This document shows, one piece after another, positions 12,250 to 20,017 of a stretch of 34,365 nt of DNA. The stretch is from Planctomycetota bacterium. Its GTDB lineage: Bacteria > Planctomycetota > Planctomycetia > Gemmatales > Gemmataceae. Position numbers and translations under genes: made by a program. The stretch's first letter is position 1. Each line of letters starts with the position of its first letter. The stretch is from positions 1 to 34,365 of the forward strand of contig JAJPIY010000046.1 of NCBI GenBank assembly GCA_021324515.1. Direction: 5' to 3'. The notes under the pieces were generated by a model, which was not told the DNA's origin, did not search any database, and saw only the letters and a list, made by a program, of their open reading frames with translations.

Positions 12250-13899
12250 ATGTCACACCCTCTGTTCACTCCCGAAGCCCGTCTGCTGCTGGAGAAAGAC
12301 GATCGCGCAGCGATGGAAGTCTTTTGCAATACGCTGCACCCGGCCACCGTTGCCGAATCGCTGACTGACGAGACCATCAGCGTCGAGGACGTTTGGCGCT
12401 TTCTCAATACGACTACGATCGCCAATCAAGCAGCGATTTTCGCGTATTTCCCTCTGGAATGGCAGGTGCAACTGGTCGAAGGGACGGGCCGGCCGCACAT
12501 GGCCCGGCTCATCGAACAGATGTCGCACGATGATCGCGTCGATTTGCTGCGCCGCCTGGAGCCGAAGGTCGCCGAGAGTTTGCTCCGTTTAGTCGATGAG
12601 GCCGAACGCCGTGACATTGCGACTCTGGTTAAATATCCGGAAAACACCGCCGGCGCCCTCATGACCACCGATTACGCCTGGCTGCCGGCCAACATTACCG
12701 TCGATCAGGCCTTGGACCGTTTACGTCTGCAAGCCCCCGACAGCGAGACCATTTATTACGTCTACATTGTCGACGAGCAACGGCGGCTGCTCGGCGTGGT
12801 GACGTTGCGCGAGCTGATCTTGGCGCCGCGCAAGGCCCTCGTCAGCGAGTTGATGGACAAGCAACCCGTGACGGTCCGCGTCAACGATGATCGGGAGAAA
12901 GTCGCTCAGGAGATCACGCGTTTGGATCTCTTGGCCATCCCCGTCCTCGACGCCGAAGATCGTCTGGTCGGCATCGTCACCTATGACGACGTAATCGATG
13001 TGGTGGTGTCCGAAGCGACTGAGGACGTGCATCGCCTGGGGGCGGTGGCGCCCTTGGAGGAAAGCTATCTCGAAACCAGTTTCGTCAAGCTCTGGTGGAA
13101 GCGAGCCGGTTGGCTGGCCCTGCTGTTCCTGGCCGAGTTGTTCACCTTCACGGCCCTATCCAGTTTCGAGGACGCCATCGCGGCGGTAGTCGTGCTCAGC
13201 CTCTTCGTCCCCTTGTGTATTTCCACCGGGGGGAATTCCGGCTCGCAAGCGGCCACGCTCATTACCCGCGCGATGGCCCTGGGACAGATCAGCCACCGCG
13301 ATTGGCCGCGCGTTCTGCGGCACGAGTTTCTTATGGGGCTGGTCTTGGGCATTACTCTGGGAATTATCGGATACGGCCGCGCCGCTTTGACGCCAGAGAG
13401 TGTACGCAGCAGCTCGCCGCCTCGCCCGGAACCCTTTCAAGCCAAGGTCTCCAAAGACACTCCCTTGGTGAGAAAAACCGTCAAGGAAGGTTGGCTGTGG
13501 ATGGAAAAGGCCATTGAAATCGTGGAAATTCCCCGCGGGACTCAGCAGGTCATGCTCGAAGAGCATGACATCACCGTCGCCCTGCCGGAAGGTGCAACGC
13601 TGACGGTTGTTGACGATCCCAACGATCCCCAATTCACTCTCTGGAACTTCCCGGCCAATTGCAGGGTCCATCATCCGCCGGTCGATCGTTACCGGCTATC
13701 GCTGGTCATCGCCTTGGCGGTAGCATCGATTTGCTTATGGGGCACTCTGGTCGGCTCGATGCTGCCGTTGTTCTTCCGACGTATCGGCATCGATCCGGGC
13801 ATTGCCTCCAGTCCTTTCGTGGCCACCTTCGTAGATGTGACCGGCATCATCATCTATTTCACCATCGCCAAATACCTCCTTGGCCAGTACCTTGTTTAG
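12250..13899 (+). CDS. mgtE: MgtE-family magnesium transporter with an extra extracytoplasmic segment
   Basis: This 549-residue protein is a Mg2+ channel/transporter of the inner membrane. Domains in order are the N-terminal helical Mg2+-sensing domain (about 15-130), a CBS pair (about 135-255) and the MgtE transmembrane domain. Family features include the TM2 sequence STGGNSGSQAATLITRAMALG and the final helices SMLPLFFRRIGIDPGIASSPF and DVTGIIIYFTIAKYLL. It is ~100 residues longer than typical MgtE because of a hydrophilic insertion at about residues 377-480 between TM3 and TM4, which should face outside the cytoplasm. It begins 21 nt after panC, probably in the same transcript. Confidence 0.92.
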   Translation: MSHPLFTPEARLLLEKDDRAAMEVFCNTLHPATVAESLTDETISVEDVWRFLNTTTIANQAAIFAYFPLEWQVQLVEGTGRPHMARLIEQMSHDDRVDLLRRLEPKVAESLLRLVDEAERRDIATLVKYPENTAGALMTTDYAWLPANITVDQALDRLRLQAPDSETIYYVYIVDEQRRLLGVVTLRELILAPRKALVSELMDKQPVTVRVNDDREKVAQEITRLDLLAIPVLDAEDRLVGIVTYDDVIDVVVSEATEDVHRLGAVAPLEESYLETSFVKLWWKRAGWLALLFLAELFTFTALSSFEDAIAAVVVLSLFVPLCISTGGNSGSQAATLITRAMALGQISHRDWPRVLRHEFLMGLVLGITLGIIGYGRAALTPESVRSSSPPRPEPFQAKVSKDTPLVRKTVKEGWLWMEKAIEIVEIPRGTQQVMLEEHDITVALPEGATLTVVDDPNDPQFTLWNFPANCRVHHPPVDRYRLSLVIALAVASICLWGTLVGSMLPLFFRRIGIDPGIASSPFVATFVDVTGIIIYFTIAKYLLGQYLV

Positions 13900-13986: not shown

Positions 13987-14143
13987 GAAATTATTGTTGG
14001 GCGCCGCCTTAGCTGCTTGGGACATTTGACAGGCATCCGCCCAGCCCCGTAAGATAAATGTAGATCGATGCGTTGCTCGAACACACCACAGCAACCGACG
14101 CGAGAGGAGTTGGCCATTCGTTTTCTATGAGGAGGGCTTGACC

Positions 14144-14866
14144 ATGACAGGGAAATGGTTCGTCGCCTACTTGCTGGCGGCGGTGGGGATCTTTGCCTGG
14201 GGAGGAACGTCGCGCGGCGGCGACATCATCCTCCTGAACGGGGGAAGCCACACGCCGACGAAGGGCCTGGTCGATGACGGTTCGGGCGCTGAAACCCTCC
14301 GTACTTGGCACCATCATTTCGGCTGGGGCTGGGGCCATCACGGCTGGGGGTGGGGCGGTTTTTATCGTCCCTATTGGGCCTGGGGCGGTTTTTATCGTCC
14401 CTACTGGGCCTGGGGCGGTTTGGGCTTCTATCGCCCCTTCTATGGCCTGGGCTTCTATCGTCCGTACTACAACTTCGGCTTTGGCTATGGGTTCGGCGTG
14501 GGCGGCTTCTTCTGGCCGTGGTGGTGTGCGGGTGCCTCGGCCAATGTGTACACTCTGAATATGCCGGCCGTCACACTCGGTTCACCGCCGCCGAATGCGC
14601 CGCAACCGCGTGCTCCAGACTCAACTCCAAGACAACCGCACGACGAGAGCACCTTCCCCTATGACGGTGGCCCAAACAACCCTGTGCCCAACCCTAAGGA
14701 CACGCCGCCGTCTTCCATCCCACGGCGTTCTGTCCCGCTGGAAGGCCGAGCTGTTTCTTTGCCGAAAGCGACGCCAAAGTGGACCTATCCGGCCTATGGC
14801 GAAAGGGTGCGCCGGACCACGCCGGCACCGGAACCCACCTATCTGACGCGCGGCGAGCAGAAGTAA
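14144..14866 (+). CDS. Secreted Gly/Trp/Tyr-rich protein with proline-rich tail
   Basis: The protein has 240 residues. An N-terminal signal peptide (MTGKWFVAYLLAAVGIFAW) is followed by a HHFGWGWGHHGWGWG stretch and repeats of GGFYRPYWAW. The first two repeats are near-identical 30-nt DNA copies. The C-terminal half is Pro/Arg/Thr-rich and looks disordered. Gly- and aromatic-rich proteins like this may form surface or envelope material, but I recognise no family with a known function. ATG 14144 is preferred over the in-frame TTG 14138 because GAGGAGGG sits 7-8 nt before it. A strong hairpin follows the gene. Confidence 0.65.
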   Translation: MTGKWFVAYLLAAVGIFAWGGTSRGGDIILLNGGSHTPTKGLVDDGSGAETLRTWHHHFGWGWGHHGWGWGGFYRPYWAWGGFYRPYWAWGGLGFYRPFYGLGFYRPYYNFGFGYGFGVGGFFWPWWCAGASANVYTLNMPAVTLGSPPPNAPQPRAPDSTPRQPHDESTFPYDGGPNNPVPNPKDTPPSSIPRRSVPLEGRAVSLPKATPKWTYPAYGERVRRTTPAPEPTYLTRGEQK

Positions 14867-15757: not shown

Positions 15758-15839
15758 GAGCCGCCGGGTTAAACCCGGCGGCTCGCCAGCGGGGTAGTGA
15801 GCCAGCGGGGTAGTGAGCCGCCGGGTTAAACCCGGCGGC
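15758..15839. repeat. Two palindromic GCCGCCGGGTT repeats with a short tandem between
   Basis: The palindrome GAGCCGCCGGGTT-A-AACCCGGCGGCTC (15758-15784) recurs almost completely at 15815-15839. Between them the 14-nt stretch AGCGGGGTAGTGAG occurs twice. The whole 15570-15959 gap is otherwise without a credible gene; small reading frames here are repeat artefacts. Confidence 0.85.
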
Positions 15840-15959: not shown

Positions 15960-16883
15960 TCACGCTTTGGATTGCTTTGCCGGCCTGCCGCGGCGCGGCG
16001 GTTTTCGTCGAGGATGAAGCGTCCGCGCGAAAGCGGCGAGATGGCCTAATTTATCTCCGTAGGTGGTGTAAGGAATTGCCGAGCGGATCTCCTCAACCAG
16101 GGCCCGGCCTCCCACCGCTGTCGCCACCCCTTGGCGTTCGACGAGCGAGTAAAAATTGCGGTATTCCACGAGGAAACCGGTGCTGTCTACCAAATACGAA
16201 ACGGACAGCCAAAGCAGTCGTGGGCGAAGAGTGCTTACCGCCTTGGCCAGGCTTGGCAACGGGGTGTTCGGCCCTAAATTGACGGCTTCCCAACCAGCAT
16301 CCAGCAAGACCAGTTGAGCCAGAAGGGTCGCCAGCAGATAGGGATCGCCTTGGGGCGCGCCACCTACAGCAATCGGCCGATCGCGCTCGGCTCGGGTTTC
16401 CAGGACTTCTTTTAACTCGTATAGCCCCGCAGCGCATAGCTGCGTCGCGCGATGTTCCTGCCATACATCCAGGCGCTCCGTCTGCCACTCATGCCCGATT
16501 GCGGCCATCGCTGGCGCAACAACCTGATCGGCGAGGACTTCCACGGCCATGCCGGAAGTATAAGCGCGGCGGAGGATGGCCGTCACTTCCGCCCCTTGTC
16601 CACGTATCAGCGCATCAATCAAAGCTGTCGCAGTCGTTTCGGGATCGGTTGCGCGCTTTCTGGAAGAAACCGGACTCAAAGCCGACGGGTCGCCGCGCGG
16701 CAAAGCGCCTTGCCGGGTCAGGGCGAGGACTTCCGCCCTCAGCAGTTTGCGATGACCACCCGCCGTCTTGTGCGCCGGCAGGATGCCTTCGTCCACCCAG
16801 CGTTTGACCGTGCTCACGCTCACGCCCAGCGCCTCTGCTGCTTGGAGCGTACTTAGGTAAAGACCTGGTTCGCCGCTTCGCAT
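15960..16883 (-). CDS. MerR-type regulator with B12-binding-like domain (CarH/LitR-like)
   Basis: This 307-residue cytosolic transcription factor has three parts. An N-terminal MerR/excisionase-type helix-turn-helix covers about residues 9-55 (LSTLQAAEALGVSVSTVKRW). A helical cap domain covers about 85-160. A Rossmann-like B12-binding domain covers about 168-285 (GWEAVNLGPNTPL). The cap carries the Wx9EH motif of light-sensing CarH/LitR proteins (W133, E143, H144). The usual E/DxH cobalamin loop reads GDPY instead, with Tyr182 where the ligating His is expected. It may bind B12 differently, bind another tetrapyrrole, or sense nothing. ATG 16883 is chosen because a putative promoter lies 40-75 nt upstream; the frame stays open to 16991. 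It is divergent from the fasciclin/TspO/photolyase genes and is their natural candidate regulator. Confidence 0.8.
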   Translation of the reverse strand: MRSGEPGLYLSTLQAAEALGVSVSTVKRWVDEGILPAHKTAGGHRKLLRAEVLALTRQGALPRGDPSALSPVSSRKRATDPETTATALIDALIRGQGAEVTAILRRAYTSGMAVEVLADQVVAPAMAAIGHEWQTERLDVWQEHRATQLCAAGLYELKEVLETRAERDRPIAVGGAPQGDPYLLATLLAQLVLLDAGWEAVNLGPNTPLPSLAKAVSTLRPRLLWLSVSYLVDSTGFLVEYRNFYSLVERQGVATAVGGRALVEEIRSAIPYTTYGDKLGHLAAFARTLHPRRKPPRRGRPAKQSKA

Positions 16884-16928: not shown

Positions 16929-16957
16929 ATAATGAGCGATTTGACCAAATTTTTCAA
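16929..16957 (-). promoter_or_regulatory. Putative promoter of the MerR-B12 regulator
   Basis: On the minus strand TTGAAA (16957-16952) and CATTAT (16934-16929) are separated by 17 nt, placing transcription start about 40 nt before ATG 16883. The surrounding DNA is much more AT-rich than the rest of the window. Confidence 0.5.
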
Positions 16958-17001: not shown

Positions 17002-17027
17002 CTTTTTGGCCTCGCTTAAAGAAAATG
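16999..17027 (+). promoter_or_regulatory. Putative promoter of the fasciclin gene
   Basis: TTGACT (16999-17004) and GAAAAT (17022-17027) are separated by 17 nt. Transcription would start near 17034, leaving a leader of about 120 nt before the fasciclin ATG. The -35 is strong, the -10 moderate. Confidence 0.45.
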
Positions 17028-17155
17028 AACGATATGAACGATTTTTTGGATCTTTCGAAGGAACACCTGAAGAGGAAGGATCGGGTGGCTGCATCAGAAG
17101 CGGTTTCTGAAGGCGAGTCATTCGGGACCGATGTTTCTGCTAAGGAGTCGCATCA

Positions 17156-17662
17156 ATGAAGCGGCTGGTTACAGTTGTTGGTGTTTTGGGGCTGTTGGCT
17201 TTGATGAGCAGTATTCGCCTTGGGATTTCTCAGGCGGGCGAGAACGATGCAAAAGACATTGTGGATACGGCCAGCGCCGCTGAGCAGTTCAAGACCCTGG
17301 TCAAAGCGGTTGAAGCAGCCGAATTGGTGGACACCTTGAAGGGCAAAGGCCCCTTCACAGTGTTCGCGCCCACCGATGAAGCGTTTGCCAAAGTCCCCAA
17401 AGAGAAACTGGAAGCGCTGCTGAAAGACAAGAAAGCCCTGACCGCTGTGCTAACGTACCACGTAGTCCCCGGCAAGGTCATGGCTGCCGACGTGGTCAAG
17501 CTGGAATCAGCCAAGACAGCTCAGGGCAAGCCTCTGAAAATCGTCGTCAAGGATGGCAAAGTCACAATTAACGGCGTCAATGTTGTCAAAACCGACATTG
17601 TTTGCAAAAACGGAGTCATCCACGTGATTGATGCCGTTTTGCTGCCGCCCGAAGACAAATAA
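17156..17662 (+). CDS. Secreted fasciclin (FAS1) domain protein
   Basis: This 168-residue protein has a signal peptide ([19 protein letters not shown], likely cleaved near SQA-GE) and one complete FAS1 domain. Family landmarks are [30 protein letters not shown], the [11 protein letters not shown]-box and the final [16 protein letters not shown]1 domains mediate adhesion or carry small ligands outside the cytoplasm. The ATG has an AAGGAG site 8-10 nt upstream. It is the first clear gene downstream of the divergent control region shared with the MerR-B12 regulator, and is separated from TspO by a long hairpin. Confidence 0.88.
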
Positions 17663-17855: not shown

Positions 17856-18359
17856 ATGTCTTCTCTTCGAGTGTTGCCGCCTCTCTCTGTCAGAGCGTTT
17901 TCCGTATTACTGCTCCTGTTGGCTGCCTGTTTTGCGGCGGCTGTCTTAGGTTCTTGGTTCAATCTTGGTCCCCTCCAAGACTGGTATCCATCCCTGCGTA
18001 AACCGACCTGGACGCCGCCCAATTGGGTGTTCGCGCCCGTGTGGACGATGCTGTACGTGCTGATGGCGTTGGCGGCCTGGCTTGTTTGGCTCCGTGCCGG
18101 CTGGCCGGCCTGCCGCGCGGCAATGACTTTGTTTATCGTTCAACTCATCCTTAACGCCGCTTGGTCTGGTCTGTTTTTCAGCTTGCATCAACCCGGAATC
18201 GCTTTCGCGGAAATCGTTGTTCTGTGGTTCGCCATCGCCGCCACCTTATGGCACTTCGGGCGTATCTCAACCTTGGCAGCGGGTTTGTTCACCCCTTACT
18301 TGCTTTGGGTCACGTTCGCAGCCATCCTCAATGGGACCATCTGGAGGATGAACGCATGA
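17856..18359 (+). CDS. tspO: TspO/MBR family membrane protein
   Basis: This 167-residue protein has five hydrophobic helices and the family signatures WYPSLRKPTWTPPNWVFAPVW (helix 1-2), QLILNAAWSGLFF (helix 3-4) and PYLLWVTFAAILNGTIWRMN (helix 5). TspO proteins bind porphyrins and cholesterol-like ligands in the membrane and in bacteria link tetrapyrroles with light or oxidative stress. GGGAGGA lies 10-11 nt before the ATG. Its position between a fasciclin protein and a photolyase, opposite a B12-domain regulator, fits a photo-oxidative stress role, which is inference. Confidence 0.9.
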   Translation: MSSLRVLPPLSVRAFSVLLLLLAACFAAAVLGSWFNLGPLQDWYPSLRKPTWTPPNWVFAPVWTMLYVLMALAAWLVWLRAGWPACRAAMTLFIVQLILNAAWSGLFFSLHQPGIAFAEIVVLWFAIAATLWHFGRISTLAAGLFTPYLLWVTFAAILNGTIWRMNA

Positions 18360-18523: not shown

Positions 18524-20017
18524 ATGAACCCCACGCCTGCCATCCGCATACAAGATTGCAATGGCGCTCCCATCTGCGGCAACGGGCAATTCGTGCTTTA
18601 CTGGATGATTGCCTTTCGCCGTACCACCTGGAACTTCAGTCTCCAGCGGGCCGTCGAGTGGGCCAAACGGCTGCAAAAACCCCTGGTGATTTTCGAGCCG
18701 TTGCGTATCGGCTATCGGTGGGCGAGCGAGCGCTTGCATCGCTTCGTACTCGACGGCATGGCTGATAATCTTGAGCGCCTAGGACCTTTGAAACGGCACG
18801 GCATCTTTTATTATCCCTATGTAGAGCCTGTAGAAGGGCACGGCAAAGGGCTCCTTGTTACTTTGGCCCGCCATGCCTGCGTCGTCGTCACGGATGATTA
18901 TCCGTCGTTCTTTTTGCCGCGGATGGTCCGGGCAGCTGCACAACGCCTTTCGGTGCGTCTGGAACAGGTCGATTCCAACGGTCTGCTTCCCTTGCGTGCA
19001 GCAGATCAGCTATTCGTCACCGCCCAATCGTTCCGAAACTTTTTGCACAAGCAGATTGGCCTTCATTTGGAAAACTTTCCGCAAGCCGACCCACTCGCCA
19101 ATGTCGCATTGCCAAGGTTGCCCTCTCTGCCCCCAGCCATCGTGCGGCGTTGGCCTCCAGTCTCTGCTGTTCAGCTCCACAGCGCTTTTCCTTTGCTAGC
19201 GCAATTGGCCATCGACCACTCCGTTAAGCCGGTGGATTACCGTGGTGGTCCCAAAACTGCACGCCTTCAGCTGCTCGATTTCCTCGATCGGAAATTAAGT
19301 CACTATGGGGAGAAGGCCAACCAACCCGACGACGATTGCCGCAGCGGCCTTTCGCCTTATCTGCACTTTGGGCATTTATCTAGCCACGAGATCTTCACCG
19401 AATTGGCCCAGCGGCGAAATTGGACACCGGCCCGCCTTTCTGGCGCAGCCCAGGGAAAGCGTGAAGGGTTTTGGGGGATGGGGCCTTCGGCGGAGGCATT
19501 TCTCGATCAACTCGTCGTCTGGCGCGAATTGGGGTACAACATGTGTTCGCAGACAGAAGATCATGACCGTTTTGAATCTTTACCGCAATGGGCCCAGGCG
19601 ACTTTGATGAAACATGCTTCCGATCCGCGCCCTTATGTTTATTCTCTGGAGCAATGGGAAGCAGCCTGCACGCATGATCCTCTCTGGAACGCAGCCCAAA
19701 CGCAGTTGGTGCGTGAAGGACGCATCCATAACTATTTGCGAATGCTTTGGGGCAAAAAGATCCTGGAATGGAGCGCCAGTCCCCAGCAAGCCTTGGATAT
19801 CATGATCGAATTGAACAACAAGTATGGCGTGGATGGCCGCGATCCCAACTCGTTCAGCGGCATCTTTTGGATTTTAGGCCGTTATGACCACCCTTGGCCT
19901 CCAGAGAGGCCCATCTTCGGCGTCGTCCGTTACATGAGTTCCCACAATACCATGCGGAAACTGCGTCTGCGTGAGTACCTGGCCAAATACGGCTGCAAGG
20001 AAGAGACACGCGGATAA
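18524..20017 (+). CDS. phr: Class II CPD photolyase
   Basis: This 497-residue flavoenzyme repairs cyclobutane pyrimidine dimers with blue light. The N-terminal alpha/beta antenna domain starts near QFVLYWMIAFRRTTWN. The C-terminal FAD domain has SGLSPYLHFGHLSSHE, FLDQLVVWRELGYNM, HDPLWNAAQTQLVREGRIHNYLRM, WGKKILEWS and NNKYGVDGRDPNSFSGIFW. The last blocks, with the RPIFGVVRYM end, are characteristic of class II rather than class I enzymes. No strong ribosome binding site precedes the ATG. A likely own promoter lies in the AT-rich gap after tspO. The frame is intact and of normal length. Confidence 0.92.
   Translation: MNPTPAIRIQDCNGAPICGNGQFVLYWMIAFRRTTWNFSLQRAVEWAKRLQKPLVIFEPLRIGYRWASERLHRFVLDGMADNLERLGPLKRHGIFYYPYVEPVEGHGKGLLVTLARHACVVVTDDYPSFFLPRMVRAAAQRLSVRLEQVDSNGLLPLRAADQLFVTAQSFRNFLHKQIGLHLENFPQADPLANVALPRLPSLPPAIVRRWPPVSAVQLHSAFPLLAQLAIDHSVKPVDYRGGPKTARLQLLDFLDRKLSHYGEKANQPDDDCRSGLSPYLHFGHLSSHEIFTELAQRRNWTPARLSGAAQGKREGFWGMGPSAEAFLDQLVVWRELGYNMCSQTEDHDRFESLPQWAQATLMKHASDPRPYVYSLEQWEAACTHDPLWNAAQTQLVREGRIHNYLRMLWGKKILEWSASPQQALDIMIELNNKYGVDGRDPNSFSGIFWILGRYDHPWPPERPIFGVVRYMSSHNTMRKLRLREYLAKYGCKEETRG

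Follow-up and report, generated by a model that had tools for sequence, protein, structure and literature searches.

The window analysed here, a stretch of 34,365 nucleotides from a member of the Gemmataceae (Planctomycetota), encodes a CarH-like regulator on its minus strand, divergent to a fasciclin-domain gene that is followed by tspO and a class II DNA photolyase gene (Table 1). A MerR-type DNA-binding domain, a four-helix cap and a Rossmann domain are all present in the protein, as judged by Pfam, AlphaFold2 and Foldseek. The HTH part matched the BldC-like PDB chains 6ama and 6amk in a sequence search, and the Rossmann part matched PF02310 (B12-binding) at residues 192-259 below threshold, with 19.3 bits against a cut-off of 32.1. 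For an AlphaFold2 model computed from 66 family sequences (pLDDT 92.7, pTM 0.88), the top Foldseek matches in the PDB were 8JBT and 8JBS, the cobalamin domain of CtMerR (E 1.7e-16, TMt 0.81-0.84), followed by TtCarH and photocobilin; phmmer also matched 8JBS/8JBT to the regulator (E 1.7e-35). The best-matching solved structures are light-responsive AdoCbl proteins, which we count in favour of a CarH-like light switch.

Table 1. Features of the regulator and its divergent neighbours, in window coordinates
Feature	Position	Strand	Evidence and remarks
CarH-like regulator gene	15960..16883	-	307 aa, ATG at 16883, stop at 15960
MerR/excisionase/BldC-type HTH, N-terminal, residues 9-59	16707..16859	-	Pfam HTH_17 2.5e-11, MerR 8e-9; excise 1.6e-11, BldC 3.3e-8
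Four-helix cap, B12-binding_2, residues 86-158	16410..16628	-	Pfam E 8.8e-12
Cap motif W133-x9-E143-H144	16452..16487	-	Translation, alignment, survey of 121 homologues
Axial loop G179-D180-P181-Y182 (GDPY)	16338..16349	-	Tyr182 in place of the lower axial His
Nucleotide-tail groove SxS (S227-S229)	16197..16205	-	Motif comparison, homologue survey
Nucleotide-tail groove GG (G258-G259)	16107..16112	-	Invariant in 121/121
Putative operator 1, perfect tandem 9-bp pair AATCGTTCA-TATCGTTCA (AATCGTTCATATCGTTCA)	17026..17043	-	Between the regulator and the divergent fasciclin gene
Putative degenerate operator 2, TTGGTCAAATCGCTCA then TTATATTTT	16933..16948	-	Before the regulator gene; 3 mismatches, weak alone
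Fasciclin-domain gene, divergent, predicted target	17156..17662	+	Pfam E 4e-43
tspO, predicted target	17856..18359	+	Pfam E 3.5e-46
Class II DNA photolyase (phr2 family), predicted target	18524..20017	+	TIGR00591 2e-108, below the strict family cut-off

As stated in the initial annotation, the light-sensing cap motif Wx9EH (W133, E143, H144) is intact in the translation; on the minus strand, the EH codons occupy 16457-16452 and the W133 codon 16487-16485, just beyond the range quoted there (16330-16460). Translation and alignment with TtCarH and CtMerR also bear out that the loop expected to supply the axial E/DxH ligand reads GDPY and holds no ligating His, Tyr182 being aligned with His177 of TtCarH (GERH) and His204 of CtMerR (GDLH). 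The annotation had allowed that another His might take the axial place. The regulator has six histidines in all (38, 44, 131, 144, 281 and 290), and by its sequence and the DSSP assignment of the model the loops that follow the Rossmann strands at their C-terminal edge contain none of these. The residue after the cap Trp is Gln134, not His.

An Rfam scan of the window returned only two tRNAs and no cobalamin riboswitch. Downstream of the regulator are two identical perfect palindromes, CCGCCGGGTTAAACCCGGCGG (15761-15781 and 15818-15838), which are REP-like and of which none is expected by chance. Further along, positions 14138-14866 encode a secreted-looking protein with tandem Gly/Tyr/Trp-rich repeats (WGGFYRPYWAWGG), and the MgtE-like magnesium transporter frame at 12250-13899 appears by eye to contain a non-membrane insert of ~110 residues in its membrane part.

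Tyrosine at the axial position

Of 95 genomes from the family, 52 proved to have a homologue, as did 89 of 392 genomes sampled across the phylum; named records with one include Limnoglobus roseus, a culturable planctomycete with the Tyr form (GDHY), and Aquisphaera insulae. Conservation was counted over 121 distinct family members. The closest relatives, with 61-68% identity, likewise read GDPY, and a sequencing or assembly error behind the motif was rejected because all nearest relatives have it. Among the 121 Planctomycetota homologues the axial residue is Tyr in 100, Ser in 7, His in 7, Ala in 2, Phe in 2, and Asp, Gly or Thr in one each. The apparent lack of His is a conserved His-to-Tyr replacement and a trait of the whole family, a confirmed observation that is larger than the initial annotation stated. 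Tyr is not obligatory at this site, some members having Ser, Ala, Phe or Gly, and in 14 of the 121 the residue is neither Tyr nor His.

The comparison of the same positions in homologues, which the annotation had proposed, extends to the other cobalamin-contact positions. The cap W-x9-E(H/R) is kept in 118 of 121 members (WEH 88, WER 30), D180 in 115, G204-x3-P208 in 120, and a Ser or Thr at position 227 in 111; GxxxP, GG and the Trp and Glu of the cap hardly vary even at ~30% identity. On a maximum-likelihood tree the His state at the axial site requires several separate changes, which indicates that His and Tyr have been swapped for one another repeatedly. In sister species of one genus, His is found at two loci (L118, NDYH; L119, NEHH) and Tyr at a third (L120, NDHY), and all three operons are alike, with a sigma factor, two SDRs, a keto-disaccharide-hydrolase-like protein, a PQQ propeller and a class II photolyase. 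The occurrence of the same operon with either form argues that both states do the same job.

Other changes are also seen among relatives. A large sub-group (L068, L070, L081 and similar loci) has W-x9-ER, not W-x9-EH, together with GDxY, representing a second change in the adenosyl cap. At one locus a tandem second copy beside a normal member (L095:2549-3463) has lost the W, the EH and the axial motif, which read I, DR and GSPD, and is probably a cofactor-free paralogue. Fragments resembling a second copy and containing stops (G000:C8:42840-43132, locus L065; 56-60% identity to residues 96-127 and 270-304) are probably a decayed regulator paralogue. Searching a plasmid collection gave only Thermus CarH and one Rhizobium match (28-29%).

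Gene neighbourhoods and operator-like repeats

A PQQ/BamB-like beta-propeller protein accompanies the regulator phylum-wide (L109:5733-7112 and ~20 other loci), often with a divergent RpoD-like sigma-70; in ~40 enlarged loci a propeller gene is adjacent or divergent in 20 and a fasciclin gene is present in 7. Other neighbours in these loci are class I or II photolyase, CMAS cyclopropane synthase, DUF1295, amine oxidase, DUF1731 and ferritin genes, and 20 of 41 neighbourhoods have a sigma-70 gene next to the regulator. In its photolyase, CMAS, DUF1295 and amine-oxidase genes this set is reminiscent of known regulons for light and singlet oxygen, and the TtCarH gene adjoins phytoene synthase and phr. 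A PduO gene, for AdoCbl supply, occurs in the regulator's own genome and in 85 of the 95 genomes of its family; being nearly universal, it does not separate genomes with the regulator from those without, and cobalamin supply was rejected as a discriminator.

The upstream regions of the homologues have tandem 9-bp repeats, (W)CGTYCAWA, in common. In 79 upstream regions from 38 loci, copies of CG(T/A)YCA are spaced 9 bp apart 50 times, the next-commonest spacing occurring 5 times, and the 9-mer AAATCGTTC lies upstream of 24 of the 79 homologues, compared with at most 5 in shuffled sequence. TtCarH uses 11-bp operator repeats (PMC8156234), while BldC binds 9-bp direct repeats head to tail (PMC5859096). 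The likeness to BldC concerns the DNA-binding part only, in the similar HTH and the 9-bp direct repeats; BldC has no sensor domain, and its repeat is AATTnnnnC as opposed to WCGTYCAWA.

When the regulator's own genome was scanned with an extended pattern, putative operator 1 was the best match. There are three one-mismatch sites, two of which (C98:449-466 and C98:580-597) face each other 130 bp apart, between an operon with CrtI-like desaturases and a PQQ-propeller gene, a kind of gene that in other genomes lies beside the regulator. By domain annotation this operon encodes a polyketide-cyclase-like protein, two CrtI-like desaturases, an aldehyde dehydrogenase, an acyltransferase, a glycosyltransferase and an SDR, and it looks like a carotenoid operon. 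The third one-mismatch site (C222:1830) lies inside a reading frame and is probably due to chance, and a further exact match (C389:878-893), also inside a reading frame, was taken as chance. In 29 other genomes, of which 16 have the regulator, no such operator was found in front of crtI, so the link to the carotenoid operon is specific to the own genome so far. A strict pattern gave 28 exact matches across the 95 family genomes versus 11 for a reversed control; by coordinates, ~18 of the 28 directly precede a regulator gene, and the remaining ten resemble background. This excess at the regulators' own promoters supports only autoregulation at the level of the family. In the genome studied here, photoprotection genes are found among the predicted targets, namely the divergent fasciclin-tspO-phr2 genes and the carotenoid-type operon.

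Probable cofactor and mode of action

CtMerR of Chloracidobacterium thermophilum (WP_157850694; 8JBS, 8JBT) is the known protein closest to the regulator in both sequence and fold. The two have in common a short excisionase-type HTH, W-x9-EH, GxxxP, GG and an Ala at the third residue after the axial site (GDLHEIA in AdoCbl-binding CtMerR, GDPYLLA here), and in neither is the cap Trp followed by His (Arg in CtMerR, Gln134 in the regulator). They differ in the axial residue itself, His204 (GDLH) in CtMerR and Tyr182 in the regulator. CtMerR binds AdoCbl via His204 and is light-responsive, with Arg after the cap Trp and no bis-His state (PMC11796333).

Domain order, the Wx9EH cap motif, the D/E of the B12 motif, the Ser and the GG are as in CarH and class I LitR (TtCarH; NF052513), and in both cases photolyase and carotenoid-type genes figure among the neighbours or predicted targets. 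The D/ExHx2G/P motif with its His is not found, the regulator reading D180-P-Y182-LL-A185, and with respect to the CarH tail groove x41-SxT/V-x22-27-GG its Ser stands at exactly x41, but the motif is SxS with 28 residues to GG. Unlike CarH, it has no bis-His partner after the Trp and no RxWERRY recognition helix (VKRWVDEG instead), its repeats are 9-bp WCGTYCAWA and not 11-bp, and its score against the NCBIfam CarH equivalog is 72.5 bits where the cut-off is 400. Because it lacks the axial His that defines CarH, we do not file the regulator as CarH; it most likely works like CarH, presumably with a bound cofactor.

Based on these comparisons, we give an even chance to a CarH-like, DNA-bound light (photo-oxidative stress) switch in which AdoCbl would be held base-off without His. 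The sequence supports the HTH/cap/Rossmann layout, the conserved cap and groove, the tyrosine of the family, the operator-like repeats and the gene context, and we infer binding of the cofactor and the response to light. In the dark, an oligomer assembled head to tail on the repeats would block the divergent promoters. The nucleotide tail of base-off AdoCbl would lie in the SxS/GG groove, with the adenosyl group under W133, E143 and H144, and the cobalt, without a His below it, would be five-coordinate or would hold water or the Tyr182 oxygen, as set by Asp180. Beside this near-invariant Asp, Tyr182 might thus be a ligand, a water holder or a mere shield of the cobalt. Light would cleave the Co-C bond and dissociate the oligomer, and its release would induce the photolyase, fasciclin, tspO and carotenoid-type genes. 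With Gln134 in place of a His after W133, the bis-His light state of TtCarH could not form, and the switch would operate as in CtMerR, by losing the adenosyl group and rearranging the cap Glu.

Several observations count against the CarH-like switch. TtCarH with the H177A mutation reportedly neither binds AdoCbl nor forms the tetramer, and M. xanthus CarH loses its function with H193A (PMC4557120); the axial site is variable, ER replaces EH in a quarter of members, the PF02310 match is sub-threshold, and the operator of the carotenoid operon was found in the own genome only. A cobalamin held without a lower ligand is known from Mmp10, where Leu322 lies below the cobalt (PMC8828468). With somewhat less confidence than the switch itself, we suggest a clade, spanning the phylum, of cobalamin photoreceptors whose cobalt has neither a His nor a benzimidazole ligand and whose conserved Tyr either ligates it as phenolate or shields a five-coordinate cobalt, as set by Asp180. 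Our literature search found no description of such a lower-axial mode for CarH-type photoreceptors, and no paper on a planctomycete CarH.

The initial annotation had left three readings side by side: cobalamin bound without the ligand, another chromophore such as a porphyrin, or lost sensing. On sequence grounds the first is best supported, since the remaining cobalamin-contact signatures persist across the phylum and the gene surroundings are photoprotective, while lost sensing is possible but less likely given the near-invariant cap and tail-groove residues. The main rival to the CarH-like switch is a domain working free of cofactor, in which the apo-form would oligomerise and bind the operator without cobalamin and the input of light or singlet oxygen would be supplied by another factor, either a partner protein or the sigma factor encoded next to it. 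We consider this rather unlikely. It would fit the need for the axial His in TtCarH and MxCarH, the variation at the axial site in the 14 members noted above, and the frequency of sigma-70 neighbours, which makes a second input plausible; there are also light-response regulators able to do without B12, as M. xanthus CarA represses without it and class II LitR acts together with a LOV partner. However, CarA keeps the B12 motif and has lost the cap Trp, the opposite of the pattern here, and class II LitR has only the four-helix domain left, whereas the regulator retains the Rossmann domain (in a high-confidence model), GG and GxxxP. Near invariance of GxxxP, GG and the two cap residues Trp and Glu is moreover not expected of a ligand-free domain.

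Binding of another tetrapyrrole (heme, protoporphyrin or bilin) with Tyr182 as axial ligand, on the pattern of Tyr-ligated heme proteins or AppA SCHIC, seems improbable. Tyr is a common heme ligand, and tspO, which in the annotation's view made a porphyrin attractive, stands in the same predicted operon. Only 3 of 36 loci have this gene close to the regulator, though, and we rejected a porphyrin link through tspO as a conserved association. AppA SCHIC, which has the same fold and also a changed axial site, binds heme instead of cobalamin and shows that a cofactor swap is possible in this fold; its His is shifted by two, its eight-residue beta3-alpha3 loop hinders cobalamin, and its cap Trp is lost (PMC9144470). 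None of these three SCHIC features is found in the regulator, which has no His in those loops, keeps the cap Trp and has a beta3-alpha3 loop equal in length to that of AdoCbl-binding CtMerR. It is very improbable that the cobalt ligand has been relocated to residue 230 in the beta3-alpha3 loop, which would ligate the metal or hydrogen-bond Tyr182. This position holds His in 48 and Tyr in 17 of the 121 members, and Tyr in the regulator itself. The flavodoxin-like strand order places beta1 beside beta3, and His or Tyr at 230 occurs in 0 of 7 His182 members versus 65 of 114 others (Fisher p 0.004) and in 10 of 11 members with Ser, Ala, Gly or Thr at 182 (p 0.01). Against this, tree-aware independent-pairs tests were not significant, there being too few changes, and in 45 of the 100 members with Tyr182, residue 230 is something other than His or Tyr; the crude counts are a suggestive lead to a relocated or supporting residue.

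Meaning for likely light regulation in the phylum

The swap is conserved across the phylum, and either B12 light sensing works without the axial His or the fold has another trigger. The reported loss of AdoCbl binding in the TtCarH H177A mutant makes the Tyr family a real test of whether a B12 photoreceptor can work without a nitrogen ligand and, if not, of what triggers the fold. For such assays the predicted 9-bp operator may serve as a handle that works without knowing the ligand. The axial His belongs to the published signature of these light receptors (GxxH), and searches that demand GxxH will miss likely light regulators across the whole phylum.
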